A DNA stretch of 20,416 nt from a virus. Location of the stretch: positions 1 to 20,416 of the IMG/VR virus record IMGVR_UViG_3300029309_000435; one strand, 5' to 3'. A program made the translations under genes and the position numbers. Shown here in pieces: positions 4,127-20,416 of this stretch. Position 1 is the stretch's first letter, and each line of letters opens with the position of its first letter. The notes beneath the pieces were generated by a model. That model made no database searches, had not been told where the DNA came from, and was given only the letters and a program-made list of their open reading frames with translations.

Positions 4127-5278
4127 ATGGGATTATTTAGTGGAATAAAAAAAGCTTTTAAAAAAGTAACCGGAGCAGTTAAGAAAGTTGTGAAGGGAGT
4201 TGCTAAAGGAGTTAAAAAAGCTGTTAAAGGTGTAGCTAAAGTTGTTAGAAAAATAGGAAAGGGTGTAAAAAAATTAGCTAAAAATAAATATGTACGGATG
4301 GGATTAATGATAGCTGCTGCAGTTACGTTGCCTATGTTTGTACCTGCGATAGCTGCTTTACCTGCCGTAGCTGCAGGAGCTGTTACCGGTGCTATTACTG
4401 GTGGTGCTGGAGCTTTACTTTCAGGTGGAGATTTAAAAGATGTATTAAAAGGTGCTGCATTTGGTAGTGCTACAGGAGCTGCTTTTGCTAAGATTGGTGA
4501 AGCAATTAAAACTGCAAAAGCTGCTAAAGTTGGAGGAGAAAGTCTTGATTTAACTCAAGGTAAATTAGATGCTATGGGAGCAGATGTTCCTGACATCGCT
4601 GCTACTGCTACTGATGCTGCTCCAACTATTGATATTTCTGGAGACGTTGTTTCTCGTACAATACCTAAACCTGATTTTCAATTTGACCCGACTGAGGTTA
4701 GTAAGTTTTCAATAGACCCTAATATTAATCCATTAGATGGGCTATCTCCTACAGGGGTAACGACTACTGCTAATGTTAATATTCCAAGTGAAACCTTAGT
4801 TTATCCTAATCAGATAATGAAACCGGGAGCTCCAGCTCAGTCTGTAACAATTACCAAACCGGGTATTGATACTTCAGTAATTGCTCCTGCTAAAAGCGTA
4901 AAAGATTCCATAACAATGAGTCAGAACTTTGCTAAATATGGAAGCACTGAAGCTACATTAGGACAAAAAATAGCTTCTAAGTTTAAAGAAGCGTTTAGTC
5001 CAGAAAAATTAACAGATACTGCTTTAGGCGTTGCTGAAGATGCAGTTGTAGGAGGTTTAAGAAATCTGGCAGCAGGAGACCAAGAAGAAGCTTATCAACA
5101 AGGAGGTAGACAATATCAAGCAGGTGTTGTTGACCCATTATTACTTCAACAAGTACAGTATGCACATTCACAAGCATCGGTAGACTTCAATACTAGTCAT
5201 CAGAATTTACTGTATGGTACAGCAGATATGTCTCATTACACGCCTTTACAAACTCAAGAAATACTTAGGATATCATAA
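4127..5278 (+). CDS. Virion protein with cationic amphipathic N-terminus and hydrophobic Gly/Ala segments
   Basis: 383 residues. Residues 6-54 are a striking lysine-rich stretch in which KK or KG alternates with Val/Ala/Phe (for example KKVVKGVAKGVKK), resembling a membrane-active amphipathic helix. Residues about 58-130 are hydrophobic and Gly/Ala-rich (MGLMIAAAVTLPMFVPAIAALPAVAAGAVTG as two adjacent spans, then GGAGALLSGG), plausible membrane-inserting helices. The rest is polar, with a Gln/Tyr-rich stretch near residues 320-360. A ribosome binding site (TAGGAG) precedes the start. Basic plus membrane-inserting character and a position among virion genes suggest a DNA-ejection protein that helps cross the host envelope. 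This is inference; no family was recognised with certainty. Confidence 0.75.
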   Translation: MGLFSGIKKAFKKVTGAVKKVVKGVAKGVKKAVKGVAKVVRKIGKGVKKLAKNKYVRMGLMIAAAVTLPMFVPAIAALPAVAAGAVTGAITGGAGALLSGGDLKDVLKGAAFGSATGAAFAKIGEAIKTAKAAKVGGESLDLTQGKLDAMGADVPDIAATATDAAPTIDISGDVVSRTIPKPDFQFDPTEVSKFSIDPNINPLDGLSPTGVTTTANVNIPSETLVYPNQIMKPGAPAQSVTITKPGIDTSVIAPAKSVKDSITMSQNFAKYGSTEATLGQKIASKFKEAFSPEKLTDTALGVAEDAVVGGLRNLAAGDQEEAYQQGGRQYQAGVVDPLLLQQVQYAHSQASVDFNTSHQNLLYGTADMSHYTPLQTQEILRIS

Positions 5279-6018
5279 TGGCTAAAAAACAAATAAAACC
5301 AGTATCACAATTTGTTACTAGAAATTTATCAGAATCTATTTCAAGAACAGTAGATGAAGCTGCTGAGTCTGGATTAGATTTTGAAGAATTTATAAGAGAG
5401 CTAGATAAAGAACCTGTAAATAAAATAGCTGAAAATAAAGAAAATCAACAAGATTTAGATGAGTTGGTATCAATGGTTGGTAAGGGTGTATCAATTCCCG
5501 GACAGTCTTTAACTAATTCTCCAGACCAAAAATATCCTTGGGAAACTCCTCCTAAACATAGTAACCCTAGAGAAGCACTTACAGCTATAACAACAGAGTT
5601 ATTAGAAACTGAAAAGGTAGGGTTCTTAATAGAAAGTTTAGCAGAAGGAATGGCAGTTACAGATATTACAACTTCTATTTTATTTGCTAAGTTTTATCAA
5701 GGAGAAATAAATCCCGATGTTATGTTATTATTAATTGAGCCAGTTATGTACACTATAATGTCTATTGGTTCAGAAGCAGGTATTGAATATAACATTGAGC
5801 CCGGAGATGTAAATGAAAGTTTTGATGAGCCGGATGAAGAATTTGAAAAAGGAAAGTTGTCAGAATTTAATAAAGCTATTGGTAAAGTTGGTGCAGAAGC
5901 TAAACCTAATATAAATAATAATATTAAAAGTGAAATACTACCTAAAAGTTTATTAGAAAAAATAGAAGACAAAGGTCCAGAAATTAGAAGTTTATTAAAT
6001 AAACAAGAAGAGGAATAA
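5278..6018 (+). CDS. Probable virion structural protein, conserved-looking, function unknown
   Basis: 246 residues, starting with TAATG overlap with the previous stop, so translation is probably coupled. The middle holds an IPGQSLTNSPDQKYPWETPP segment (about residues 73-94), then helices with a mildly hydrophobic stretch near residues 145-165. I associate this kind of proline-rich YPWE segment followed by a helical domain with structural proteins of marine phages, but I cannot name the family. The C-terminus is acidic and charged. No catalytic motif or signal peptide is seen. Position suggests a core or ejection role. Confidence 0.75.
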   Translation: MAKKQIKPVSQFVTRNLSESISRTVDEAAESGLDFEEFIRELDKEPVNKIAENKENQQDLDELVSMVGKGVSIPGQSLTNSPDQKYPWETPPKHSNPREALTAITTELLETEKVGFLIESLAEGMAVTDITTSILFAKFYQGEINPDVMLLLIEPVMYTIMSIGSEAGIEYNIEPGDVNESFDEPDEEFEKGKLSEFNKAIGKVGAEAKPNINNNIKSEILPKSLLEKIEDKGPEIRSLLNKQEEE

Positions 6019-6019
6019 C

Positions 6020-7432
6020 ATGGCAGAAGAATTTGACTATTTAAAAGATTCTAAATTTGGTAAGTTAGCTACTAATATTCTTGATAAAAGAGAAAAAGAT
6101 AATGATAGATTACTACCAACTGGAGGAAATTTATTAGCGTTGTTCGCAGACGTTGCTTCTAAATATATAACTAAAAAGAATAGAGATTTACAACAAGAAC
6201 AAGCTACAAATATTGAAACTTTAACAAGGCAATATAATGATGTTATCGGCACGAGAAAAGATTTTTTTAATAGTAGTGCTATAAAAAAACAGAGAGAAGA
6301 TTATCAGCTTTGGAAAAATCCAGAAACAAAACAGAAAGCAAGATTAGCAAAAGCTATAGAATATTTTAATCAAGATAAAGATATGATAGAAGAGTTTGGA
6401 AGTATGAATCCTTATAATGAATATTTAAAACTTCCTAAAAATTCTAAAAACGCTGAGTTAATGAATGATGCACTAGAGCTTCTAATGGGTCAAGCAGATG
6501 TATATTTTGAAAGTATAAATGACGATGCTATAGTCGTGCCTACACAAGCAGAATATTTAAGAGAAGTTAAACAAGCTTTTGAAGCTGCACTAAAGGAAGC
6601 AAGGAATGACCCTACTAAAAAAACTTTTTTACGAAAACAATTTTTAAAAGCATTTGGAAGAGATGAAAAAGGTAATCCTAGATTTGGTTTAGTCAATCAA
6701 GATGAGTTAAAAAATCTAAGAGTAAATGCTGAAGAGGCTGCTGGTATTGGTAGAGATAATCCTTTAGCAATGGTAAGTGATTTAGATATAGAGCAAAGAG
6801 AAGCAGATAAAGCTAGAGTTTTTGAACGACCTGATTTAAGTGAGTTTGATTTTCTTACTCAAAAACCAAAAAGTTCTAAACCTAATCCTGTTGATAGACG
6901 TGTTTTAATAGATGCTAGTTCTGACGTTAGGAGTCTTTTTAATGACCAATACAAATTTGATATTGTAAATAATGATGGAGCTAAGAAAAATTTGTCTTTC
7001 TATTCTGTATACAAAGGTCTTAAAAACTATAATGGTAGTAATCAAATGCAAGGTCAATATAACCAAACGAATCTTATATATGATGTATTAACCCTATCAA
7101 AAACTGCTAGAGCAGAATTTGAAAAAACAAATTACGATGGTGATGTAAGAAGTGCTGAATCATTTTTAGTACCTGCGATACAAGAAGTATTTGATAGAAT
7201 GTCTAACGGACTGCCTTCTTTAGGCTTTGAAAATACTATGGAGGTAATAGCACCTGATGAAATGGTTGAGTTTACTAGCAATGGTACAGACTATAAAATG
7301 TCAATACAAGAAGTTGCTGAGACATTTATTGGTAAATCCAATGAAGAAAAAAACGACTGGATTGATAATATAGAATTTGAACCGAAGTATAAATTTGTAT
7401 TTGATGTGTTAAGACGTAGGGATTATGAATAA
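6020..7432 (+). CDS. Probable internal virion/ejection protein, 470 aa
   Basis: 470 residues, highly charged and mostly helical, starting two bases after the preceding stop. It holds a basic N-terminal helix region (residues about 5-60), a central helical domain with alternating Lys and Glu/Asp, and a C-terminal domain ending FEPKYKFVFDVLRRRDYE. No signal peptide, membrane segment or catalytic motif is seen. It sits immediately before the giant 1695-residue protein and overlaps its start, a position like that of the middle core protein gene (gp15) of T7-like phages. Homology to gp15 is not visible by eye; only the order supports the analogy. Confidence 0.75.
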   Translation: MAEEFDYLKDSKFGKLATNILDKREKDNDRLLPTGGNLLALFADVASKYITKKNRDLQQEQATNIETLTRQYNDVIGTRKDFFNSSAIKKQREDYQLWKNPETKQKARLAKAIEYFNQDKDMIEEFGSMNPYNEYLKLPKNSKNAELMNDALELLMGQADVYFESINDDAIVVPTQAEYLREVKQAFEAALKEARNDPTKKTFLRKQFLKAFGRDEKGNPRFGLVNQDELKNLRVNAEEAAGIGRDNPLAMVSDLDIEQREADKARVFERPDLSEFDFLTQKPKSSKPNPVDRRVLIDASSDVRSLFNDQYKFDIVNNDGAKKNLSFYSVYKGLKNYNGSNQMQGQYNQTNLIYDVLTLSKTARAEFEKTNYDGDVRSAESFLVPAIQEVFDRMSNGLPSLGFENTMEVIAPDEMVEFTSNGTDYKMSIQEVAETFIGKSNEEKNDWIDNIEFEPKYKFVFDVLRRRDYE

Positions 7433-10400
7433 TGTCTAATAGGGAAAAATCAATACAAGAGCTGATTGCAGAAAAAGCAAGTACTCCTAAAACAACAGAA
7501 ATTTCTTTAGAGTCTATACCTGAAACAAACTTAACTGAAGAAAAAGTTGTAGAAGGTTTAGAAGAGAAAGATGACATACATATAGAACTAGACAAGAAAA
7601 ATAGACTTCTAGATGATGACATTTCTGAATTTAGAAAATTTAATTATGGTGCAGAACAAGAAACTCATATCCTAGGAAATTTATGGAGACAAGGAAAAGC
7701 TCTTTATAGAAGTGCAACTTCTGATGAGTTGACTTTAACTTACTCAGAAGCTGCTCGTCAAATAGAAGCTGAAAGACAAGAAGCTATTTTTGAAAAATTT
7801 CCAGAGTTTAGAGGTAAAGAAGAAGATGCTGCAGTAATCGCTGGAAGAGTAGCTACAGGATTTCTTGACCCAGTTGCTCTTGCAGTTCCTTGGACTAGAA
7901 TAGCTCAAGCAGGTAGAATAGCTACCATTACAGCAGGGGGAGCTTTTTCTGCTGGAGATATAGCACTTAGAGAATATTCTTTGTATGGAAGGGTAAGTCC
8001 TTATAGTGTAGGACTTGCTGCAGGTTTAGGTGCTGGAGCAACAACTATTAGTTCCGTAATAGCAGATAAAATTAATAAGGCAATTCCCAGTGGTAAATTA
8101 ATTACTGTTGATGAAACTGGTAAGCCAGTAATTACTAACATGTCTAGGATTGATGCTGAAGATACGTTAGGAGATTTAAGTCCAGAAATAAAAAGAGGTT
8201 TGGAATTAGTTTCAAATGATGTATACAAAGTTTCTGGTCCATACATTGCTAGGTTTTCAAAAGATTTAGAAAGTTTAGGAGTTAAATATAATAAAAGATT
8301 AATAGCTAGAAATGAATTAAAAAAGCATCAAAAACAATTAGAACAATTAGAAAGAATTGGCTTAGATAAACAAGTAGAATTATTTAAAGGTGGTCAAGTT
8401 GAGCAGGTTAAAAAGATAATAGATGCTCAGAAAAAATTAGTAGAACAGTATCAAAAAGAAATTGATGATATTCTACTAAAACAAATGCCGGAAGATTTAG
8501 GCGTTGTTGGTTTTGAATCTTTTAAAAGAGCTTATCAAGCAGGATTATTAAAAGGAAGGATTGGTGAACAACTAACACGAGCTTTTGTACAAGAAGCAGT
8601 TAGACCGTTAATAGGAGCAGTTGGTGGCTTTGCTGCTGGAAGTGCTATGGGTGCTAATGATAATTCTGCGTATATGTCAGCAGCTATAGGAGCTGGTATA
8701 ACGATGGGAATTATATCTAAAAGATTAGAGCTTGATAAAGGTATACCTAAAGAAGTAGTATCTTTCTTTAAAAAGGAAGGAGAAAAAGTTTTTAAGCGTA
8801 ATTGGAGAACTAATTTAAATTTAACTTTATTTGGTGCTGGAACTCACGCTTCTTATATGCAATCTCGTAGCTCAGTTTTAAGAGACTTTAGTGAAGATTT
8901 ATATGGATATAGAGGAAATGCTTACGATTTAGGTAAGCCTATGAGACCAAACATAGAAGAGTTAAGGTACACGAGTAATGATTATTTTAGAAAGCAAGTA
9001 TTTGACCTTTTACAAGATGTTGACGATGACACTATTTTAACTGCTGGTAGAATAATACAACAGCAAGATGCTCCTTCTAATATGAAGTATAACTTTATAG
9101 AAAAAGGAGATTTAGATAATAAACAAGCTGTAGAATTAGCTAATAAATTTATAGGTATTAGAAAAGAAATAAAAGACTATGCAGAAAAAGCAGGTCTTAC
9201 TTTTACTGAATTAGATTCTTATGGATTAACGCAGATACTAGATTCTGAGGAAGTTAAGAAAATGGGATTTGCGAATGCTCAAAAAATAATAGCTCAAGCT
9301 TTTATAATACAAAGTAAAAACCTAAGTACTAAAGATTCAAAAGTAAAAGTATTGACAAAAAAAGAAGCTAATAGATTAGCAATAAAATATTTAAATCATT
9401 CTGATAATGTTAGAAGACAAGAGGTATTAGACGAAGTTAGTATAACTGATGACACTTTTAAACTTATTAAGAATGATGGTAAAAAAATTAAAAAAGGAGA
9501 AAGTCTTTTACAAGCTTCTAAATATTTAGCAAACGAAAGAACTTTAGTAGACCCTGAAGCTAGAGCATTTGCTAAAAATCTTTTTATTCAAGACCCAGAG
9601 TTTACGACACTAAGACTTTCAGAGAATATTGTACCCGTTGCAGAGTTTGCTAGGCGTTATGGAGAAAAAGGTCAAGGACTAAGAAAAGTTTTTGCTGATA
9701 TTAAAAAGTATTACAGTCAGTTTGGTAATGTAGATACTAATTCTTCTTTACAAAAATTAGTTAGAGAAGATTTTGAACAAGTTAGAAATAGTGTAAATGC
9801 TTACTTTGGTGTCTATGATTTAAGAGGTGGTATAAGAGGTAGTGATGCATTTAAAAGTGTAATGTTAACTTTACAAACTTTATTATCAACTACAAAACTA
9901 ACTAAAGTTGCTTTACCTTCTTTAGGAGATTTACTACAAGTAATACAAAACAGTGGCTTCAAGGCAGCAGCTAATTCTGCATATTTACAAATGAAGCAAA
10001 GAGGTTCAAAAGCAATAAAACCTTCTGCTGCTTTAGCTCAAAGAAGCCCGACTGATGAAACCGGTATAATTTTTAAAGAGCCTATTTTTGGTAGAAAATT
10101 TGGAAATAGAAAATATAGAAATACTTTAGAAAGAGAGCTTAGTGATTTTTCACAAGCAGCTACTACTCGTTATCAACAAGGATTAATAAACTTTCAAGGA
10201 AGATTTTTTGAGATAGTTCAATTAGGTAGAGTAACTAGATTTGCTAGAGAATTTGCTTATGATGCTGGAGCATTTAGAATTTTTGATTTAGGTAAAAAAG
10301 CTGCTACAGGTAACTTAAGTAAAGCACAAATAAGAGAAATAAATCTTTTAGGTTTTAAACCTGAAGAAATAAAATTTTTAAGTAAGTTTAAAAGTATGGA

Positions 10401-12519
10401 TGATGCTTTTAAAAATCCTGAAGGTAAAATAGTTATTGACATAGCTGGAAGAAGGTCTGCAGATAGAGATGCATTAATACCACAGATAGGTAATAGAAGA
10501 TTATTTTCTCAATCTAGAGACCCTATGATGAAATTTGCTGGAAGTTTTTTATCTTGGGCACAAGCAAAAGCTACTCAAACTAACTCATTGGTTAGAAGAA
10601 TAGAGGATGGAGATGCTAAATTAGCTTTAATGATGTTAGCATCTTTGCCTATATATGGAGCAGTTAGAAGTTTACAAATATCTATGAACTCAAGTGAAGA
10701 ATTTAGAGAGGAGCATCCTAACTTTTTATCTGGATTTGAAAACGAAGGAGACCTTAGAAAGTTTATTGCAGACTCACTAATTTTTAGTGGGCAAACTTTA
10801 CCATTTAGTATAGATAAATTAGTTAACTTTGTGAAGTATAGTAATTCAGATATAACTGAATCTATCTATCCTGTACTAGGATTTCTAAACGATTTATTTG
10901 GAGCAGTTAGAACTGGAATTAAAGGTAAACCTTTTACCGGTATTAATAGATTAGTTGAAACTGTAGTTCCTTTTGGTAAGGATTTTACTCGTTCTGAAAA
11001 AGTTGGAGAGGCTCTAGGTCTTCCCGATACTATCGAAGGGGAAGCTAAATTTAGGGATTCAGATAGAGCTCTAAGACTAAACTTTGTAACGGGTGGAGAA
11101 GTTGAAGGAGAAGAAGTTCCATTTACTCAAGAAAATCCTGCAGATAGAATTAATCCATTGACAGGAGAACCATACAGTCAAACTTCAAAAGGTGTCTTAG
11201 CTACTTTAAAAGATAGACAAGAAGATAGAATTCCTAAAACCTATGGTGGTTTGTTAAATAATTTACAAAGACGTAAAAAGTTTGCGTTAGGTGCTACTGT
11301 TGCTGGACTACTTACTAGAGAAATACTTGACCAATTACCTAACAAAGTTTATCGTGGAGGCTCAAGTAGAATTATTACCAGTAAAGAAGGAACTTCATCA
11401 GTGTTTGCAACTCCAGATAAGATAATGGCTGACTCTTTTGCTGACCCTAAATCTGTTGCGAAGTCAATGGTAACAGATGGTGAGTCTTTAAAAATGAAAG
11501 ACAAACTTAATCTACATGAAATTGATATAAGTGGTGCTAAAAATCCTTATGTACTAGACCAACCTAGTGAGGCAATGAAAATTAGAATAGAGAGAGCTTT
11601 GATGAAGGAGGGGAATAGTGATGCTAGAAATGATGCGTTAAATTCTTTACTAAATCCAGAAGATTTTGATATAAGAGTAGCCTCCTCTGATTTTTATAGG
11701 GTAAACAGAGAGGTTGGTAAGTTTTTAAAAGACGAAGGCTATGATATAGCTTTAGATAGTAGAACTTTGCAAAAAGGTTTTAATAATAATCCAGAAGCAG
11801 AGTTATTTATTTTAGGTAAGTTTCCTGTAAAAGCTATACCTAGACTAAAAGTTAAAGGTCAGGAAATTGAAGGTGGAGATTTAGTTACCTTTAAAGATGT
11901 AGCTAAAAAAGTAGACGAGCCACCTACAGTAAAAGTTCCAACATGGTTTAAAGAAACTCAAGTTAAAACTGATGTTAACCCTGCTGATGCTCAAAAAACT
12001 CAAGTAGGTATAACCTCTGGAACTTATAAAAAAGTAGTGCCTTTATTAAAGACAGGTAATACTTTAGACTTTGGTGCAGGTTTAGGTAAAGGTGCTAAAA
12101 TATTAAAAGCTGATAGCTATGAGCCGTTTCCTAAAAAAGGTTTTGAACCTACCTTTACAGAAACATCTGCAATACCTAATAGTTCCTATGATAATGTAGT
12201 CAGTTTAAACGTTCTCAATGTTGTTAAACCTGATGTTAGAAATGATATAGTTTTAGATATAGGTAGAATTTTAAAACCAGAAGGTATTGCTATTATAACT
12301 ACCAGAGGCTCTGACATTTTTGGTAATAAAAATAATATTACTAAAGGTGTCTTGTCAAACTTAGAAGAAGGTGCTATAATAACAAGTAGTGGCACTTATC
12401 AAAAAGGTTTTACTAATCCAGAGTTAAAAGAATATGTTAGTGGCTTACTAGGCGATATGTTTGAAGTAGAAAACATTACTGGTCTAGGTAAGGCAGGTAT
12501 AAAAGTTACAAAATTATAA
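7432..12519 (+). CDS. Giant internal virion (ejection) protein with C-terminal ART-like and methyltransferase-like domains
   Basis: 1695 residues, TAATG overlap with the previous gene. The N-terminus is charged; residues about 135-210 and 390-430 are Gly/Ala-rich hydrophobic segments; residues 290-350 are coiled coil. Residues 800-1180 include a conserved-looking core around FAGSFLSWAQAKATQTNSL (1035-1053), typical of large phage ejection proteins. The size and position match the giant last core protein (gp16-like) of podoviruses. The C-terminus differs: residues about 1305-1470 look like an ADP-ribosyltransferase fold (VYRGG, SSVFATP, ADSFADP, then AELFILGKFPVKAI), and residues about 1530-1640 resemble a class I methyltransferase (LDFGAGLGKG, then SYDNVVSLNVLNVV and LKPEGIAIITTRG). 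No lytic transglycosylase motif was seen. The ejection role is inferred; the two C-terminal folds are motif-level calls. Confidence 0.85.
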   Translation: MSNREKSIQELIAEKASTPKTTEISLESIPETNLTEEKVVEGLEEKDDIHIELDKKNRLLDDDISEFRKFNYGAEQETHILGNLWRQGKALYRSATSDELTLTYSEAARQIEAERQEAIFEKFPEFRGKEEDAAVIAGRVATGFLDPVALAVPWTRIAQAGRIATITAGGAFSAGDIALREYSLYGRVSPYSVGLAAGLGAGATTISSVIADKINKAIPSGKLITVDETGKPVITNMSRIDAEDTLGDLSPEIKRGLELVSNDVYKVSGPYIARFSKDLESLGVKYNKRLIARNELKKHQKQLEQLERIGLDKQVELFKGGQVEQVKKIIDAQKKLVEQYQKEIDDILLKQMPEDLGVVGFESFKRAYQAGLLKGRIGEQLTRAFVQEAVRPLIGAVGGFAAGSAMGANDNSAYMSAAIGAGITMGIISKRLELDKGIPKEVVSFFKKEGEKVFKRNWRTNLNLTLFGAGTHASYMQSRSSVLRDFSEDLYGYRGNAYDLGKPMRPNIEELRYTSNDYFRKQVFDLLQDVDDDTILTAGRIIQQQDAPSNMKYNFIEKGDLDNKQAVELANKFIGIRKEIKDYAEKAGLTFTELDSYGLTQILDSEEVKKMGFANAQKIIAQAFIIQSKNLSTKDSKVKVLTKKEANRLAIKYLNHSDNVRRQEVLDEVSITDDTFKLIKNDGKKIKKGESLLQASKYLANERTLVDPEARAFAKNLFIQDPEFTTLRLSENIVPVAEFARRYGEKGQGLRKVFADIKKYYSQFGNVDTNSSLQKLVREDFEQVRNSVNAYFGVYDLRGGIRGSDAFKSVMLTLQTLLSTTKLTKVALPSLGDLLQVIQNSGFKAAANSAYLQMKQRGSKAIKPSAALAQRSPTDETGIIFKEPIFGRKFGNRKYRNTLERELSDFSQAATTRYQQGLINFQGRFFEIVQLGRVTRFAREFAYDAGAFRIFDLGKKAATGNLSKAQIREINLLGFKPEEIKFLSKFKSMDDAFKNPEGKIVIDIAGRRSADRDALIPQIGNRRLFSQSRDPMMKFAGSFLSWAQAKATQTNSLVRRIEDGDAKLALMMLASLPIYGAVRSLQISMNSSEEFREEHPNFLSGFENEGDLRKFIADSLIFSGQTLPFSIDKLVNFVKYSNSDITESIYPVLGFLNDLFGAVRTGIKGKPFTGINRLVETVVPFGKDFTRSEKVGEALGLPDTIEGEAKFRDSDRALRLNFVTGGEVEGEEVPFTQENPADRINPLTGEPYSQTSKGVLATLKDRQEDRIPKTYGGLLNNLQRRKKFALGATVAGLLTREILDQLPNKVYRGGSSRIITSKEGTSSVFATPDKIMADSFADPKSVAKSMVTDGESLKMKDKLNLHEIDISGAKNPYVLDQPSEAMKIRIERALMKEGNSDARNDALNSLLNPEDFDIRVASSDFYRVNREVGKFLKDEGYDIALDSRTLQKGFNNNPEAELFILGKFPVKAIPRLKVKGQEIEGGDLVTFKDVAKKVDEPPTVKVPTWFKETQVKTDVNPADAQKTQVGITSGTYKKVVPLLKTGNTLDFGAGLGKGAKILKADSYEPFPKKGFEPTFTETSAIPNSSYDNVVSLNVLNVVKPDVRNDIVLDIGRILKPEGIAIITTRGSDIFGNKNNITKGVLSNLEEGAIITSSGTYQKGFTNPELKEYVSGLLGDMFEVENITGLGKAGIKVTKL
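11344..11841 (+). other. ADP-ribosyltransferase-like domain in the ejection protein
   Basis: Residues about 1305-1470. The order of motifs is VYRGG (candidate NAD-binding Arg at 1308), SSVFATPDKIMADSFA (Ser-Thr-Phe-like strand and helix), and a closing strand AELFILGKFPVKAI. This matches the layout of ART-like domains in phage polyvalent proteins (Y-H/R-G, then F-T-P with an A-x-x-F/Y helix, then a final V/F-F-x-x-x-x-I-K strand). The catalytic Glu or Gln of the third motif is uncertain; Glu1455 or Glu1457 is a candidate. Confidence 0.5.
12019..12516 (+). other. Class I SAM-methyltransferase-like domain in the ejection protein
   Basis: Residues about 1530-1695. Motif I is LDFGAGLGKGAKIL (1545-1558), an acidic post-strand residue follows in SYEP (1562-1565), and the SYDNVVSLNVLNVV strand (1585-1598) is followed by a helix and LKPEGIAIITTRG (1614-1626), the usual pattern of a small Rossmann methyltransferase. 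No DPPY/NPPY-type motif for DNA amino-methylation is seen, so the substrate cannot be guessed. Confidence 0.65.
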
Positions 12520-12525
12520 TAAATA

Positions 12526-12891
12526 ATGTATAAATACTTTACAGAAGATGAACTAAAATGCAAACACACCGGTCTATGTGATATGGACTGGGCATTTATG
12601 CAAACAGTTGAAAGGATTAGAGAACGTTGTGGTTTCCCTTTCAAAGTAAGCAGTGCTTATCGTTCTCCAGAGCATCCCATAGAAGCTAAAAAGAGCACCC
12701 CCGGAGCTCATTCTTCTGGTAAAGCTATGGATATACTTGTCAACGGAGAACAAGCCATGACACTCGTTAAAATAGCTCTGGAAGAGGGTATTAATAGGAT
12801 AGGAGTTGCACAAAAAGGAGACCGTGCTTCGAGATTTATTCATCTAGACATGGATAACTCACGAGCCACTCCTCGTATTTGGAGCTACTAA
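12526..12891 (+). CDS. M15 family peptidase, probable endolysin
   Basis: 121 residues matching the short peptidase M15 (D-Ala-D-Ala carboxypeptidase/L-Ala-D-Glu endopeptidase) fold. The zinc-binding pattern is visible: SAYRSPEH (residues 43-50), GAHSSGKAMDI with His62 and Asp69, and FIHLDMD with His106. Such proteins cut peptide crosslinks in peptidoglycan and are common phage endolysins. No signal peptide or membrane anchor is present, so export would need a holin. It follows the ejection gene by six bases without an obvious ribosome binding site, and the next gene starts in its stop codon. With the holin downstream it forms the lysis cassette. Confidence 0.9.
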   Translation: MYKYFTEDELKCKHTGLCDMDWAFMQTVERIRERCGFPFKVSSAYRSPEHPIEAKKSTPGAHSSGKAMDILVNGEQAMTLVKIALEEGINRIGVAQKGDRASRFIHLDMDNSRATPRIWSY

Positions 12892-15411: not shown

Positions 15412-15636
15412 TCATGGTTTAAGAAATTCTGGTTTGTCAAAAAAAATAAACATTGTTATAAAAGGTAATATACCTATACCGATTACAAAAATAGATGGTA
15501 ATATTACTGCCCAAAACATAGGATTCTTTGTCATAAAATCTAGGTCTTTATTATTCATACCTTTCTTTTTATCTTCTTCAGTGTAATCTGGATACGATAA
15601 AGAATCTTCAAATCTTTTGACATGTTTTGGTTTCAT
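15412..15636 (-). CDS. Single-span membrane protein co-translated with the cytochrome c
   Basis: 74 residues. A polar, charged N-terminus (residues 1-38, Lys-rich) is followed by one hydrophobic span at about residues 41-66 (FWAVILPSIFVIGIGILPFI onward) and a short tail FFDKPEFLKP. The positive-inside rule puts the N-terminus in the cytoplasm and the tail outside. Its ATG overlaps the cytochrome stop in an ATGA junction, so the two are probably translated together and may act together, for instance as a membrane dock for the cytochrome or as a small oxidase-type subunit. I do not recognise a family. Confidence 0.75.
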   Translation of the reverse strand: MKPKHVKRFEDSLSYPDYTEEDKKKGMNNKDLDFMTKNPMFWAVILPSIFVIGIGILPFITMFIFFDKPEFLKP

Positions 15637-16064
15637 AAAGTATCAATGTAAGCTTGTAAATTTTCCATATCTTCAAGAGTTAGGTTAGCAGCTTGACCCC
15701 ACATGAGAGCAGATTGTGCACCCCTAGTCTCTCCATTTTTATATTGCATTAACATTTTTACAATAGATGTACTTCCAGATAATTTTGGTCCAATACCTCC
15801 TTCTCCTTTCATACCATGACACATATTACAATTAACATATATCTTAGCACCTTTATCAGCAGGTGTTTCTGTTTGCATTGCAACTCTTTTTGCTTCTAGT
15901 TGTTCTATAAATGTACCATACTTTGCAGTATATTCTTCATAACATTCTCCCCAACAACCATGTACATCTCCATAACCAGACACGTCTGCGTTTATAATAG
16001 TTGTATAAAGTATTCCACCGATACCTAAAACTCCAACTAATAACATTGCTATACTGTGTTTCAT
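15633..16064 (-). CDS. Mono-haem c-type cytochrome, membrane-targeted
   Basis: 143 residues from the ATG at 16064, chosen because GAGGGA sits four bases upstream and the ATG follows the nrdA stop; an in-frame GTG at 16076 inside nrdA is less likely. Residues 5-25 are a hydrophobic signal or anchor (IAMLLVGVLGIGGILYTTI, possible cut after INA). Residues 70-143 are a class I cytochrome c: CNMCH at 79-83 (Cys79 and Cys82 bind haem, His83 is axial), GIGPKLSG, then a probable axial Met121 in ALMWGQAANLTLEDMENL and a final helix. Two extra cysteines (37 and 41) may form a disulfide. It needs host periplasmic haem ligation. It would carry electrons in respiration; the redox partner is unknown. Confidence 0.92.
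   Translation of the reverse strand: MKHSIAMLLVGVLGIGGILYTTIINADVSGYGDVHGCWGECYEEYTAKYGTFIEQLEAKRVAMQTETPADKGAKIYVNCNMCHGMKGEGGIGPKLSGSTSIVKMLMQYKNGETRGAQSALMWGQAANLTLEDMENLQAYIDTL
15816..15830 (-). other. Haem c attachment motif CNMCH
   Basis: Read on the - strand, these five codons give Cys-Asn-Met-Cys-His, the CxxCH signature for covalent haem c attachment. It is the only CxxCH in the protein, so one haem is expected. Confidence 0.95.
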
Positions 16065-16065
16065 A

Positions 16066-17961
16066 TTATCCCTCACAAGCTATACAGTCCACTTCATCTA
16101 GTTTTATTCGTGGAACTTTTATATTAACATTTTCTGCTGCTCTAGCTGCATCAGACCTAAAGTAGTATAGTGATTTTAATTTATGCATACCATACCAATG
16201 CACATCATTTACATACTGCATGTATTCATCATGGGCATTTTGTTCTTCAGTTGCTTTTGGTAACACGAAAAATAAATTTATTGATTGGCTTTGACAGAGA
16301 AACTCTTGTCTTTTATGAGCATGTTCAATAATCCATATTTGATTTATTTCATTAGCAGTTTTAAATAATTCTTTTTCCGTATCATCTAACATAGAAAGAT
16401 GTTGTACTGAGCCGTTATTACCGGCAATATCTTTCCAAACGTTGTCAAGTTCTTCCCCTTTTAATCCTTTACTTTTTAAAACTTTTTCCAAGTATTTATT
16501 TTTTACTTGATAACTACCTGATAAAGTTTTGTGAGTAAACACATTTGCCCTGTAAGGTTCTACTGAGGGAGACGTACCAGCACATATAATACTACTACTA
16601 GCGTTAGGAGCAACGGCAAGGAGATTAGCATTACGCATCCCAGAACCAGATACATCAGGTGCTTCACCACGAATATCAGCCAGTTCCTCACTAGCTTTCG
16701 TAGCTTTCTTTTTAATGTGTTTAAACGCTTGATAGTTGAATCCCGTAGCTTGGATTCCTTCAAAAGGTATGCCGTTTGATTGTAGATAGGCATGAAAACC
16801 CATCGCACCCAATCCCAAAGAACGCTCTCTGTAAGCTGAGTAAGCAGCTTTTGTAAATCCTTCTTTACCATCTTTGACATATCCTTTAAATCTTTTAAAG
16901 TTTGCATTATATTCTCCCAGTTGTGATGTGTCAATAGCATTCTCAATAAAATGTTGTAGAACATTATCTAACATAGTTATTAAATCTTTTATAAAGTAAT
17001 CATCTTTAGACCATTCATCATAATGTTCTAAGTTAACACTAGACAAACAACATACTGCTGTTCTTTCTTCGTTAGTAGGTAGAGTTATCTCTGAACATAA
17101 GTTGCTTTGTTTTATTTCTAAGCCTAAATCTTTTTGTCCTTGTGGTAGGGCATCATTACAGTTGTCTATGTTTATCATATAAGGTTCGCCTGTTTCTGCT
17201 CTAGCGTAGATAATCTGCCACCATAACTCTCTAGCGTTTATAGTTTTAACTGCCTCGTTTGTTTTAGGGTCTATTAATCTCCAGTCTGCATCATCTCTAA
17301 CAGCTTTAAGAAAATCATTAGTGATGTTAATACCATTGTGTAAGTTTAAACACTTTCTATTTATATCTCCACCAGATTCTTTTCTCATGTTTATAAACTC
17401 TTCAATCTCTGGATGCGATATATCCATATATGCAGCATAGCTACCACGTCTAGTTACGCCTTGATTAAAGGCTAACATCTGAGAATCAACTACATGGATG
17501 AATGGAATACTTCCAGTAGAACGACTCCCGCTAGAAGTAGAAATACCATTACTCCTAATATCTCCCCAGTATCCACCAATTCCACCACCTGAACTAGCCA
17601 ACCAAATATTTTCGTCATAGTGAGAAGATAAACCGTCACGACTATCGGGAACATAATTAAGAAAACAGCTAATGGGAAGACCACGAGTTGTTCCCCCGTT
17701 ACTAAGTATAGGAGTGCTAAACATGAACCAACAATCGGAACTGTAGTTATACAGTCTTTGAGCCATTTCATAATCTGTAACACCCTTGAAAGTGGCAGCA
17801 AATACTGCAGCCCTAGCAAAAGCTTCTTGTGCATGTGTTTCTTCCTCCCAGAAATATCTATCTCTTAGTGTATCTAAACTAAACTTGTCTAGCTTTTTTT
17901 CTTTTTCGTAATTTATTTCAATACCTAAATAAGGTTTTTGTCCTACTTTATCTTCTACCAT
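16066..17961 (-). CDS. nrdA: Ribonucleotide reductase class I alpha subunit (R1), lacking the ATP-cone
   Basis: 631 residues; makes deoxyribonucleotides with NrdB. Catalytic elements are visible: Cys99 (GLPISCF), N-x-C-x-E with Asn287, Cys289 and Glu291, a second redox Cys at 304 or 305, the radical-transfer tyrosines 599-600 (SLYYF), and a C-terminal Cys626-x-x-Cys629 that takes electrons from thioredoxin or glutaredoxin. The first 30 residues run straight into the R1 core; the roughly 100-residue N-terminal ATP-cone of many NrdA proteins is absent, which is known to remove dATP feedback inhibition. The ribosome binding site is weak (AAGAA-like) and the gene follows the DUF3310 gene by five bases. 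The next gene, a cytochrome, begins at its stop. Confidence 0.97.
   Translation of the reverse strand: MVEDKVGQKPYLGIEINYEKEKKLDKFSLDTLRDRYFWEEETHAQEAFARAAVFAATFKGVTDYEMAQRLYNYSSDCWFMFSTPILSNGGTTRGLPISCFLNYVPDSRDGLSSHYDENIWLASSGGGIGGYWGDIRSNGISTSSGSRSTGSIPFIHVVDSQMLAFNQGVTRRGSYAAYMDISHPEIEEFINMRKESGGDINRKCLNLHNGINITNDFLKAVRDDADWRLIDPKTNEAVKTINARELWWQIIYARAETGEPYMINIDNCNDALPQGQKDLGLEIKQSNLCSEITLPTNEERTAVCCLSSVNLEHYDEWSKDDYFIKDLITMLDNVLQHFIENAIDTSQLGEYNANFKRFKGYVKDGKEGFTKAAYSAYRERSLGLGAMGFHAYLQSNGIPFEGIQATGFNYQAFKHIKKKATKASEELADIRGEAPDVSGSGMRNANLLAVAPNASSSIICAGTSPSVEPYRANVFTHKTLSGSYQVKNKYLEKVLKSKGLKGEELDNVWKDIAGNNGSVQHLSMLDDTEKELFKTANEINQIWIIEHAHKRQEFLCQSQSINLFFVLPKATEEQNAHDEYMQYVNDVHWYGMHKLKSLYYFRSDAARAAENVNIKVPRIKLDEVDCIACEG
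16069..16074 (-). promoter_or_regulatory. Ribosome binding site that sets the cytochrome c start
   Basis: GAGGGA on the - strand lies in the last codons of nrdA, four bases ahead of the ATG at 16064. This favours a 143-residue cytochrome over a start at the upstream GTG (16076), which has no such signal at normal spacing. Confidence 0.7.
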
Positions 17962-18507: not shown

Positions 18508-19363
18508 TCGTAACCTCTATAACTTTAGGTGGTCTTGGTGTTTGTGTGAGATAACTATATCCTCTTGAATATTTAAATACTCTTAGACCTAATCCATCGT
18601 TAGCATCTGAATGACATTCAAACTTATGTCTGCAATATACACATTCTTTAGGAAGTTTCATATTGCCAGAGCTGCCTTCTGGTTCTGGATTATAACATCT
18701 TTGAGGTGGTTTGTCAAGCTTTATTGCTTTCTTAACATCTCTTATTTTCTTTTTAATATTAGGTTTATCAAACTCAGAAGGTCTGAACAAAGCTAACTCT
18801 CCGGTCTCTTTATTCATAGCTAAGAAGCCGCCTTTTTGTGTACCTTCAGCTTCTTCGTAACCTGCAAGTTGTGGAAGATAGCCGAACGTATCTTGCTCTG
18901 CTAACGTACCGTCTTTAAATTTCTTGAAAGCAAAGCCTGAAGCAGTCTTAATATCTACTACTTCTCCGTCTATAGTACAATCCATGTGTCCTTTAATACC
19001 AGACACGGATACTTCTTTCTGTTCATTACCTACTTTATGTCCAGAAATCTTTACTAAAAATAATAATACTTCTTCTAATAAATGTCCATATAAAAATTTA
19101 ATAAAAACTGGAGCAGGTAAAGACTCAGTAGACTCATTCTCTGATTTTAAATCATACCATAATTGTCTAGTAGGTTTACCAATGTTAGACATTCTTAACA
19201 TGTCAGAACTTCTTGGCGATGGGTTAGCCCAATGATGTAGTACTTCTTTAATGCTTTCTCCTAGAGCATCTATGTCTTCAGAACTAGCATCAAGAGGCTT
19301 TCCTTCTCCTAAAACAGAAATCTTAGAATAAATATCATCTACTAAGTTATCTAAATTTTTCAT
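18476..19363 (-). CDS. PD-(D/E)XK nuclease, Cas4/RecB-like with likely Fe-S cluster
   Basis: 295 residues. The nuclease core is visible: Glu97 or Glu98 in GHLLEE, Asp128 in GHMDC, the Asp137-x-Lys139 of VVDIKTAS, and a QxxxY motif (Gln165, Tyr169) typical of the RecB/Cas4 exonuclease group. Four cysteines, Cys223 and a C-x2-C-x5-C set at 241, 244 and 250, match the Fe-S cluster layout of Cas4 and AddB nucleases. No CRISPR array or cas1/cas2 is present here, so it is most likely the phage's recombination or replication exonuclease, filling the place of T7 gp6. Its ATG overlaps the previous stop in an ATGA junction. The Fe-S cluster is inferred from cysteine spacing. Confidence 0.88.
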   Translation of the reverse strand: MKNLDNLVDDIYSKISVLGEGKPLDASSEDIDALGESIKEVLHHWANPSPRSSDMLRMSNIGKPTRQLWYDLKSENESTESLPAPVFIKFLYGHLLEEVLLFLVKISGHKVGNEQKEVSVSGIKGHMDCTIDGEVVDIKTASGFAFKKFKDGTLAEQDTFGYLPQLAGYEEAEGTQKGGFLAMNKETGELALFRPSEFDKPNIKKKIRDVKKAIKLDKPPQRCYNPEPEGSSGNMKLPKECVYCRHKFECHSDANDGLGLRVFKYSRGYSYLTQTPRPPKVIEVTNEWQKSKKTT

Positions 19364-19881
19364 ATTGTTTCAATTATATTCTTAGCATCTTGTTTGCTAA
19401 TTTTAAACCATTCTCCTTTTTTCTGCTCAGAGTTTTTCTTTAGTAGCTTATGTGCTTTTTTCTCAGCATCTTTTCTATCATTAAAAAATCTACTGTAATG
19501 TAATTTATAATCTCTGAAAGGACTAGAGGTTTGGTATTGATTACATCTATCTTTAGAATCAATAGCCATACCAACTTTTACCCAACCTTTCCAAGATGGA
19601 TTACTTATAATGTATATATCTCCGCTTTCTTCTTTGTTATATAACATCTTAGCAATCTTACTGATAGCTTGTGGTTTCTTTATTTTGCCGAAAACTAATT
19701 TAGTTAAGTTACCTCCTTGCTGTAAGTATCCTTCGATAGTTCTAAACTTTCTTTTATAAAATACTAAACCATCCTCATTAAGATGATGATTGATACCTCT
19801 CTTTCTCCAAGTAGTTCCATCATACATTTTTCCATCTGCTCTGATGTCTCCGTTCTTAGGTTTTATATTAATGTGTTTCAC
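19360..19881 (-). CDS. GIY-YIG endonuclease-like protein with T5orf172 domain
   Basis: 173 residues from a GTG start at 19881, supported by an AGGAG about nine bases upstream and a 14-base overlap with the polymerase stop; the next ATG would remove 18 residues. Residues 87-160 carry the domain: GDIYIIS, VKVGMA with Lys102 and Gly104, Arg112, an A-E-K-K-A-H segment with Glu140 and His144, and the closing GEWF (156-159). T5orf172 proteins are divergent GIY-YIG nucleases seen in phages, some as free-standing homing enzymes. Residues 1-80 are basic and may bind DNA. Location between DNA polymerase and exonuclease fits a homing insertion or a replication-linked nuclease; which one cannot be told. 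Confidence 0.85.
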   Translation of the reverse strand: MKHINIKPKNGDIRADGKMYDGTTWRKRGINHHLNEDGLVFYKRKFRTIEGYLQQGGNLTKLVFGKIKKPQAISKIAKMLYNKEESGDIYIISNPSWKGWVKVGMAIDSKDRCNQYQTSSPFRDYKLHYSRFFNDRKDAEKKAHKLLKKNSEQKKGEWFKISKQDAKNIIETI

Positions 19882-20416
19882 TCCAATTATCTCCTACTTT
19901 GTATTCGCCATCTAAAGGACAACGAAGATTAAAATATTCTCCTGCTTCTGTTATAGCTTCGACTGCACGAAGTCCTACAAAGTCTGCCTGAGACTCCCTC
20001 ACTTCAACTTGCCATTCGTCATGTATATTCGCAACGAACTTATAGTCTATAGTATTTAATTTTAGTTTACTATCTAATAAAGACAATGCTTTCTTCATAA
20101 CAATAGCACCTGCTCCTTGTAATAAAGTATTTAAAGCAGCATGATTATTTCTAATGTAAAGCTTTCTACCGTCTATACCCTTGAGGTACTTCTTAGCTGC
20201 TGCTCTCTGAACTCTATCTCTAAGAGATTTAAATTCTGGTTTATTATCAAAGAAATATTGTCTAGCTCTTTTACCATCTGATGTATTTCCTCCAACCACC
20301 TTGCCAAGTTTTTCATCTCCTGCTCCGTACATGAGGGCGTAGATGAAAGTCTTTGCCTTATCTCTTGATTCAAGTCCTGCAAGTTTTTGATTAGAGGTGT
20401 GTATGTCTCCGTTAAT
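19868..20416 (-). CDS. Family A DNA polymerase, C-terminal part (partial)
   Basis: 182 residues are visible; the frame stays open to the right edge, so the N-terminal exonuclease and most of the polymerase lie outside. Motif B is RDKAKTFIYALMYG, with the Tyr at the position of T7 Tyr526 (Phe762 in E. coli Pol I), and motif C is HDEWQVEV (about 20000-20023), whose Asp is a catalytic metal ligand. The preceding DIHTSNQKL also matches T7-type polymerases. It copies the phage genome. The stop overlaps the GTG start of the GIY-YIG gene, so the polymerase heads the visible - strand operon. The DnaJ-like insert of some marine podovirus polymerases cannot be checked because that part is missing. Confidence 0.96.
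   Translation of the reverse strand: MNGDIHTSNQKLAGLESRDKAKTFIYALMYGAGDEKLGKVVGGNTSDGKRARQYFFDNKPEFKSLRDRVQRAAAKKYLKGIDGRKLYIRNNHAALNTLLQGAGAIVMKKALSLLDSKLKLNTIDYKFVANIHDEWQVEVRESQADFVGLRAVEAITEAGEYFNLRCPLDGEYKVGDNWSETH

Follow-up and report, generated by a model that had tools for sequence, protein, structure and literature searches.

The sequence analyzed here, called the window below, is the whole 20,416-base IMG/VR record IMGVR_UViG_3300029309_000435, which comes from a metagenome-derived marine virus of bacteria. One of its late genes encodes a 1695-residue protein, P0001, whose C-terminus is a compact class I methyltransferase dependent on S-adenosylmethionine (SAM). Upstream of this domain lies a region resembling the ADP-ribosyltransferases (ARTs), and a short junction motif separates both from a conserved scaffold. 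The parts of the gene are as follows:

7432..12519, plus strand: P0001 gene, an uninterrupted open frame for the 1695-residue multidomain protein
7432..11133, plus strand: scaffold part, residues 1-1234, kept among pelagiphage-type relatives
11134..11175, plus strand: junction motif NPADRINPLTGEPY, residues 1235-1248, after which relatives end 12-16 residues on or run into a variable tip
11323..11880, plus strand: ART-like domain, residues ~1298-1483, VYRGG ... VFATPDKIMADSFA ... AELFIL, recognized by fold-level matches
11974..12516, plus strand: class I SAM methyltransferase domain, residues 1515-1695, recognized by profile, AlphaFold model and fold matches

The methyltransferase was detected with a profile built from 42 relatives, with the two rows nearest the window excluded along with the window itself. 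This profile matches residues 1515-1695 with 221 bits (E = 3.5e-70), taking in a conserved N-terminal segment, KTQ..TY, while the highest score reached in 2000 shuffles of the domain is 7.3 bits. The AlphaFold model has a mean predicted local distance difference test (pLDDT) value of 93 and a predicted template modeling (pTM) score of 0.89, and its topology is that of a Rossmann-like, seven-stranded methyltransferase. Compared with the PDB, it gives 562 matches at E ≤ 1e-3, and those listed are class I methyltransferases. They include METTL6 bound to S-adenosylhomocysteine (SAH) (7ezg; Z = 16.0, 2.7 Å over 179 residues) and RPA2492 bound to SAM (3e23; Foldseek E = 3.5e-8), and several of the closest solved folds have one or the other ligand in place. 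An earlier note on this DNA, made from the letters alone, had placed a Rossmann methyltransferase core at the end of the protein, at 12019-12516. The core and its end stand, but the start does not, as the profile match begins about 45 bases upstream at 11974. That note had named a fold without a SAM pocket as the finding that would speak against it; instead, the domain retains GxGxG and the acidic motifs, and the best matches are SAM- or SAH-bound structures. As a single sequence, the segment matches Pfam Methyltransf_23 at E = 1.6e-4, under the gathering score, and members of its family do so at up to 5.8e-13. Naming the family from the single sequence through Pfam or NCBIfam was rejected because such matches are too weak.

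Conservation was counted over 101 instances of the domain. Eight residues are invariant in 101/101: D1546, G1550, N1596, R1603, Q1657, K1658, E1664 and L1665. The positions of interest are:

12064..12087, plus strand: motif I, LDFGAGLG, the SAM-binding loop (D1546 and G1550 in 101/101, G1548 in 99/101, G1552 in 100/101)
12121..12123, plus strand: E1564, acidic, past strand 2 at the SAM ribose position (98/101)
12208..12219, plus strand: motif IV position, NVLN (N1593..N1596), standing where [DNS]PP[YFW] would (N1596 in 101/101)
12304..12306, plus strand: R1625, past strand 5 in ITTRG (99/101)
12400..12411, plus strand: QKGF signature, residues 1657-1660, common to Dnd-associated methyltransferases as [FY]QK[YG][YF], and TFQKYY in TIGR04096

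The class I pattern is thus present, with GxGxG preceded by an acidic residue and a second acidic residue past strand 2. The conservation of QKGF is partly a matter of ascertainment, since this string was part of the search pattern used to collect relatives. The domain looks catalytically intact. It is also under purifying selection: the ratio of nonsynonymous to synonymous substitution (dN/dS) is 0.053/0.31 (0.17) against the related locus L011 and 0.145/0.457 against L012 (about 0.32 with L012/L014). As the earlier note had remarked, there is no motif of the DNA N6/N4 type, and [DNS]PP[YFW] is found nowhere in the 1695 residues. N6-adenine or N4-cytosine methylation of DNA is therefore unlikely, and a DNA methyltransferase of either kind was rejected, NVLN being in place of motif IV. 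A protein, an RNA or a small molecule is a likelier target than base-N-methylated DNA. The likeness to METTL6 and other small class I methyltransferases concerns the overall fold (Z 16) and is silent on substrate: METTL6 and the phage domain are 18% identical, with no substrate motif shown in common.

Going beyond the earlier note, the comparison of relatives shows that the methyltransferase module is a C-terminal tip which can be exchanged while the scaffold is conserved. Relatives of the scaffold were collected from IMG/VR, where 80 of 148 were kept for analysis, and a scan with scaffold and junction together shows that the consensus NPADR[VI][ND]PxTGxPY closes the basal protein. Among 90 complete relatives, a count that includes near-copies, 38 end 12-16 residues past the junction and 52 carry tips of at least 100 residues. 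Matches in the tips include Phage_lysozyme (6e-15), Phage_lysozyme2 (3e-11), Peptidase_M15 (1e-3) and ART-PolyVal (2.7e-4). Several ART-like domains and the ART-like and methyltransferase pair also occur as tips, and segments bearing HExxH and transglycosylase-like domains were both recognized by eye. The IMG/VR scaffold relatives L106-L258 have many differing and mostly unnamed tips past NPADRxxPxTGxPY (for instance L143, L217 and L110), and such tips form a pool of candidates for injected phage domains.

The exchange can be followed to within a few bases. Two breakpoints recur around the methyltransferase:

11926..11930, plus strand: recurrent left recombination breakpoint of the module (L105 homology stops at 11927, L011 homology starts at 11930, and that of L012, in one match, at 11926)
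12503..12529, plus strand: right recombination breakpoint at the gene end (L105 homology is back at 12503; the L012/L014 methyltransferase match stops at 12513, with near-identity from 12529)

Locus L105 has 92% DNA identity to the window on both flanks, and there window positions 11927-12502, the methyltransferase module, give way to some 930 bases that code for a domain of no relation to it. This replacing tip (L105 1048-2064) is about 300 residues long, contains LRLDIPAYNNFDKWVVSIH and GMNPYRFSYFYDKADGMPVV, and has a weak match to Phage_L5_gp82 (5.2e-5). From 11930, the methyltransferase of L011 is 82% identical to that of the window in DNA, whereas its ART-like region is only 35% identical and its scaffold is a different one; L011 has in common with P0001 residues 1191 onward only. 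In L012 and L014, the ART-like and methyltransferase cassette (about 59% amino acid identity) sits on a third scaffold and is followed by a further ART-PolyVal-like domain, and the genes downstream are the same as in the window at 96% DNA identity. Comparing homologues for the module, as had been proposed, finds it present in some sisters and swapped or absent in others. Because a strongly supported split of the tree separates the window-type from the HTVC103P/L253-type methyltransferases, the scaffold lineage has captured the domain at least twice. Tip swaps in near-identical genomes suggest selection by differing hosts or defences.

The surroundings of P0001 are late virion genes, namely a tail fibre gene, internal-protein-like genes and an endolysin gene. 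The nearest neighbours are:

5278..7432, plus strand: two genes 5' of P0001 for proteins of 246 and 470 residues, which correspond to T7 gp14/gp15-type internal proteins by position only
12526..12891, plus strand: M15-peptidase endolysin gene, 91-96% DNA identity in L105/L012/L014, which have differing tips

The gene order around P0001 is the same in HTVC103P and LS06-2018-MD07. In the latter, the gene at the gp14 position matches phrog_805, "internal virion protein"; family searches found no match for the 246-residue protein of the window. Residues ~29-1250 of P0001 are homologous to gp52 of Pelagibacter phage HTVC103P, gp54 of HTVC104P and gp40 of HTVC115P, and the relative L113 has a match (7e-24) to phrog_22602, annotated as "virion structural protein". 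As for the ART-like region, it has no sequence match to solved structures, and its links are made by fold. The model resembles residues 1419-1604 of chain B in the cyanophage A4 pre-ejectosome (9k3a; Z = 8.0, 4.1 Å over 136 residues) and an anti-CRISPR protein (6kyf; Z = 7.3), and other top folds are ParT, RES toxins and diphtheria-type ARTs. The top folds thus belong to the ART superfamily or to phage ejectosomes, with Z values of 8 or less. For the ART active site, H/R-[ST/Y]-E/D, the sole candidate is the R/H at VY[RH]G. A domain of this kind thus seems to lie close to the C-terminus of the A4 protein, which is a solved part of an ejectosome, and this fold match is the best link of P0001 to the virion interior.

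P0001 is probably an internal virion or ejection protein of the T7 gp16-like type, because of its late-gene position past a tail fibre gene and the two genes that are gp14/gp15-like by position, the "virion structural" and "internal virion protein" matches of relatives, the tips with cell-wall hydrolases that sister phages have, and the likeness to A4. The earlier note had also called it an ejection protein with an ART-like region in the same chain, and of these the ART-like region is supported at the level of the fold, while P0001 is a large late-gene protein with virion/ejection-like relatives bearing cell-wall hydrolases, as would suit the first. A role in anti-defence or takeover, which that note also suggested, would be putative. 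On balance, we favour the reading in which a SAM-dependent class I methyltransferase serves, with an ART-like domain, as the exchangeable tip of a large ejection protein of a pelagiphage-type podovirus and is delivered into the cell. P0001 would be built into the internal core during assembly, and upon infection it would exit the capsid ahead of the DNA or with it, the tip being the first part to reach the periplasm or cytoplasm. The methyltransferase would then use host SAM to methylate a target of the host or the incoming phage within the first minutes, before any phage gene is expressed. We infer packaging of the full-length chain, methyltransferase activity, a substrate and a benefit. Several points weigh against this delivery: no solved ejection protein matches the scaffold in sequence, the ART-like model is moderate (pLDDT 62, pTM 0.61), the virus is represented by a metagenome fragment of 20 kb, and many members of the methyltransferase family are internal or stand-alone near portal and capsid genes, which is also compatible with a role in assembly.

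This last point leads to the distribution of the family. Relatives of the domain are encoded in 234 IMG/VR stretches, and of 79 complete proteins, 59 have the domain at an internal position and 12 as their C-terminal tip, while in 8 it stands alone. In the Roseobacter phages CRP-3 (gp36) and CRP-738 (gp40), the gene lies between the portal and coat genes, and in the cluster C mycobacteriophages Myrna (gp97) and Bigswole it lies between the portal and major head genes. In Microcystis phage MJing1, it is a stand-alone gene for 231 residues. The domain of LS06-2018-MD07 is in a giant protein beside an ART-like domain, two genes past the "internal virion protein". Pelagiphages HTVC103P and HTVC104P have it in a large protein, followed by a phage lysozyme, and HTVC115P has the same scaffold without it. 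A genome-wide pattern scan found four loci, but it required the QKGF string and is hence biased. None was found on plasmids, and 398 genomes of one relative's phylum held nothing beyond the relative already known. A recent host-derived acquisition was rejected, given no match at E ≤ 1e-8 in the 397 other genomes. The family is a phage-specific branch, and its pattern of occurrence shows that the methyltransferase is a phage module mounted on unrelated virion-associated proteins. CRP-738 (L003) and LS06 (L006) also have similar sequence past the methyltransferase, which in CRP-738 is Pfam DUF7178; a VDTH motif in it recalls, by eye, the helix-hairpin-helix base-excision glycosylases.

Such placements would suit an enzyme that works in the cell where virions are made and methylates capsid, portal or ejection proteins as they assemble, with fusion bringing the substrate close and no delivery taking place. 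Family members do stand between terminase/portal and major capsid genes, are fused to a prohead-protease-like protein in the cluster C mycobacteriophages, and stand alone in the head cluster of MJing1 and L018. However, patchy presence and swaps with lysozyme, M15 and ART-like tips misfit a function that all sisters need, and cluster C is mostly without the methyltransferase (283 records for the protease part versus 6 mycobacteriophage records for the methyltransferase). We therefore regard this explanation as unlikely. The paper on the Myrna capsid gives no peptides for gp97.

The domain could also be a catalytically dead methyltransferase fold whose role as a tip is in structure or binding. 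Its compact core has a very short stretch between strand 2 and strand 4, and the family has no known activity. But in about 100 sequences on unrelated scaffolds, conservation is among the highest at the positions that bind SAM and at the polar ones of the pocket, and purifying selection acts on the domain. A dead fold thus seems improbable, and delivery of an active enzyme is still the reading that we prefer.

The closest named family, which the earlier note had not brought up, is TIGR04096, "DNA phosphorothioation-associated putative methyltransferase". It is matched at E ≤ 0.01 by 39/45 members of the phage family (best 3.7e-17). A profile-profile comparison of the phage family reaches 98% probability (E = 4.3e-14) against a TIGR04096 set in which four plasmid-borne proteins are joined by one distant bacterial homologue. 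The order of signatures is the same in both: a KT[AQ]I N-terminal segment, D[YF]G[AC]G, NLxxVLNV[VI], ER/xxR and T[FY]QK[YG][YF]xxxEL. The window itself scores 20.1 bits, below the curated cut-off of 150 bits, so that membership was rejected and the domain is a relative, not a member. The Dnd proteins of TIGR04096 have ~670-690 residues with an extra N-terminal and a long C-terminal region, whereas the phage domain has about 180 and is free-standing or fused to virion proteins; past strand 2, the former have GWDP and the latter YEPFP. Cellular relatives sit in Dnd-type islands, with genes for cysteine desulfurase and ATP-binding proteins close by, while P0001 is located among phage late genes with no Dnd phosphorothioation island. 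In the literature, we found no paper naming TIGR04096, no functional study of it, and none tying a Dnd-associated methyltransferase to phages. A bacterial TIGR04096-like protein of 399 residues (L093 7248-8444) corresponds to only a part of the longer Dnd protein, and the family model matches it in swapped order (328-476, then 6-146). The kinship could mean that the phage enzyme acts on the same substrate as TIGR04096 and counters or mimics phosphorothioation-based defence, but although TIGR04096 is the best named relative, is located in Dnd-type islands and has NLxxVLNV and TFQK-[YG]-[YF]-xxxEL in common with the phage domain, it is itself without known function, the kinship is distant (~23% aligned identity) and the virus hosts are not known to have Dnd, which makes this the least probable of the alternatives.

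Two other genes of the window were recorded. On the minus strand at 15633-16076, between ribonucleotide reductase genes, is a gene for a 147-residue c-type cytochrome (Pfam Cytochrom_C, 4.4e-7) with a CNMCH haem motif and a hydrophobic helix at its N-terminus. It has 0 relatives in 50,697 phage records and is present in a dozen related IMG/VR loci; a cytochrome c on a phage genome would be unusual. Also on the minus strand, at 19360-19881, is a gene with a T5orf172/MUG113 (GIY-YIG type) domain, adjoining a fragment of a family A DNA polymerase gene (19868-20416).

A wider model of the delivered tip can be proposed, though only tentatively. In pelagiphage-type podoviruses, the largest ejection protein may be a platform for interchangeable first-strike effectors, with NPADR[VI][ND]PxTGxPY as the fixed swap point, as in the C-terminal exchange of polymorphic toxins. 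One family of tips would be a new virion-delivered methyltransferase, kin of a Dnd-island enzyme and acting inside the host during the first minutes of infection. The junction then becomes a handle for mining, the sequence past NPADRxxPxTGxPY being a candidate injected phage enzyme, and the link to TIGR04096 offers a second handle on a Dnd defence-island enzyme. If the host is SAR11, as relatives suggest, these are phages of one of the most abundant bacterial groups in the ocean.

Virion-delivered multi-enzyme proteins are a known theme. P0001 is like the T7 gp16-type and A4 pre-ejectosome proteins in its place past gp14/gp15-like genes, its size and the cell-wall hydrolases of its sisters. 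The T7 gp14-gp15-gp16 order and sizes fit, with the gp14 family match found in the relative LS06 only. To our knowledge, no methyltransferase has been reported in ejection proteins of these types. The polyvalent proteins of phages and conjugative elements carry several unrelated enzymatic domains per chain, and their delivery with the genome has been argued (Iyer et al., 2017; PMC5512222). P0001 and its relatives would be similar in that unrelated enzymatic domains (ART, methyltransferase, lysozyme) are combined in a late-gene phage protein, and the relatives have ART-PolyVal and lysozymes. The place of P0001 among late virion genes agrees with this, and of its two putative enzymatic domains the methyltransferase is firm and the ART-like one is recognized at fold level only. 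The zincin-like metallopeptidase (MPTase) that is a frequent hub domain of polyvalent proteins, serving their processing, has no Pfam match in P0001, and HExxH is seen by eye in some sister tips. The methyltransferases of polyvalent proteins belong to the TaqI/EcoKI-like N6-adenine kind, have NPP[YF] and are joined to SNF2 helicases as in DarB, whereas P0001 has neither NPPY nor helicase. The Dar proteins of phage P1, DarB included, are methyltransferase-bearing, packaged, co-ejected and active on entry (PMC12810830), but DarB is an N6-adenine DNA methyltransferase with a helicase and has no sequence or motif relation to the P0001 domain. If delivered, the latter would be a methyltransferase brought in by the virion whose kind is absent from the methyltransferases listed for polyvalent proteins. 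What is new here is a methyltransferase family outside their N6-adenine type, its kinship to the methyltransferase of Dnd islands, and a defined tip-swap junction on a pelagiphage-type ejection protein.

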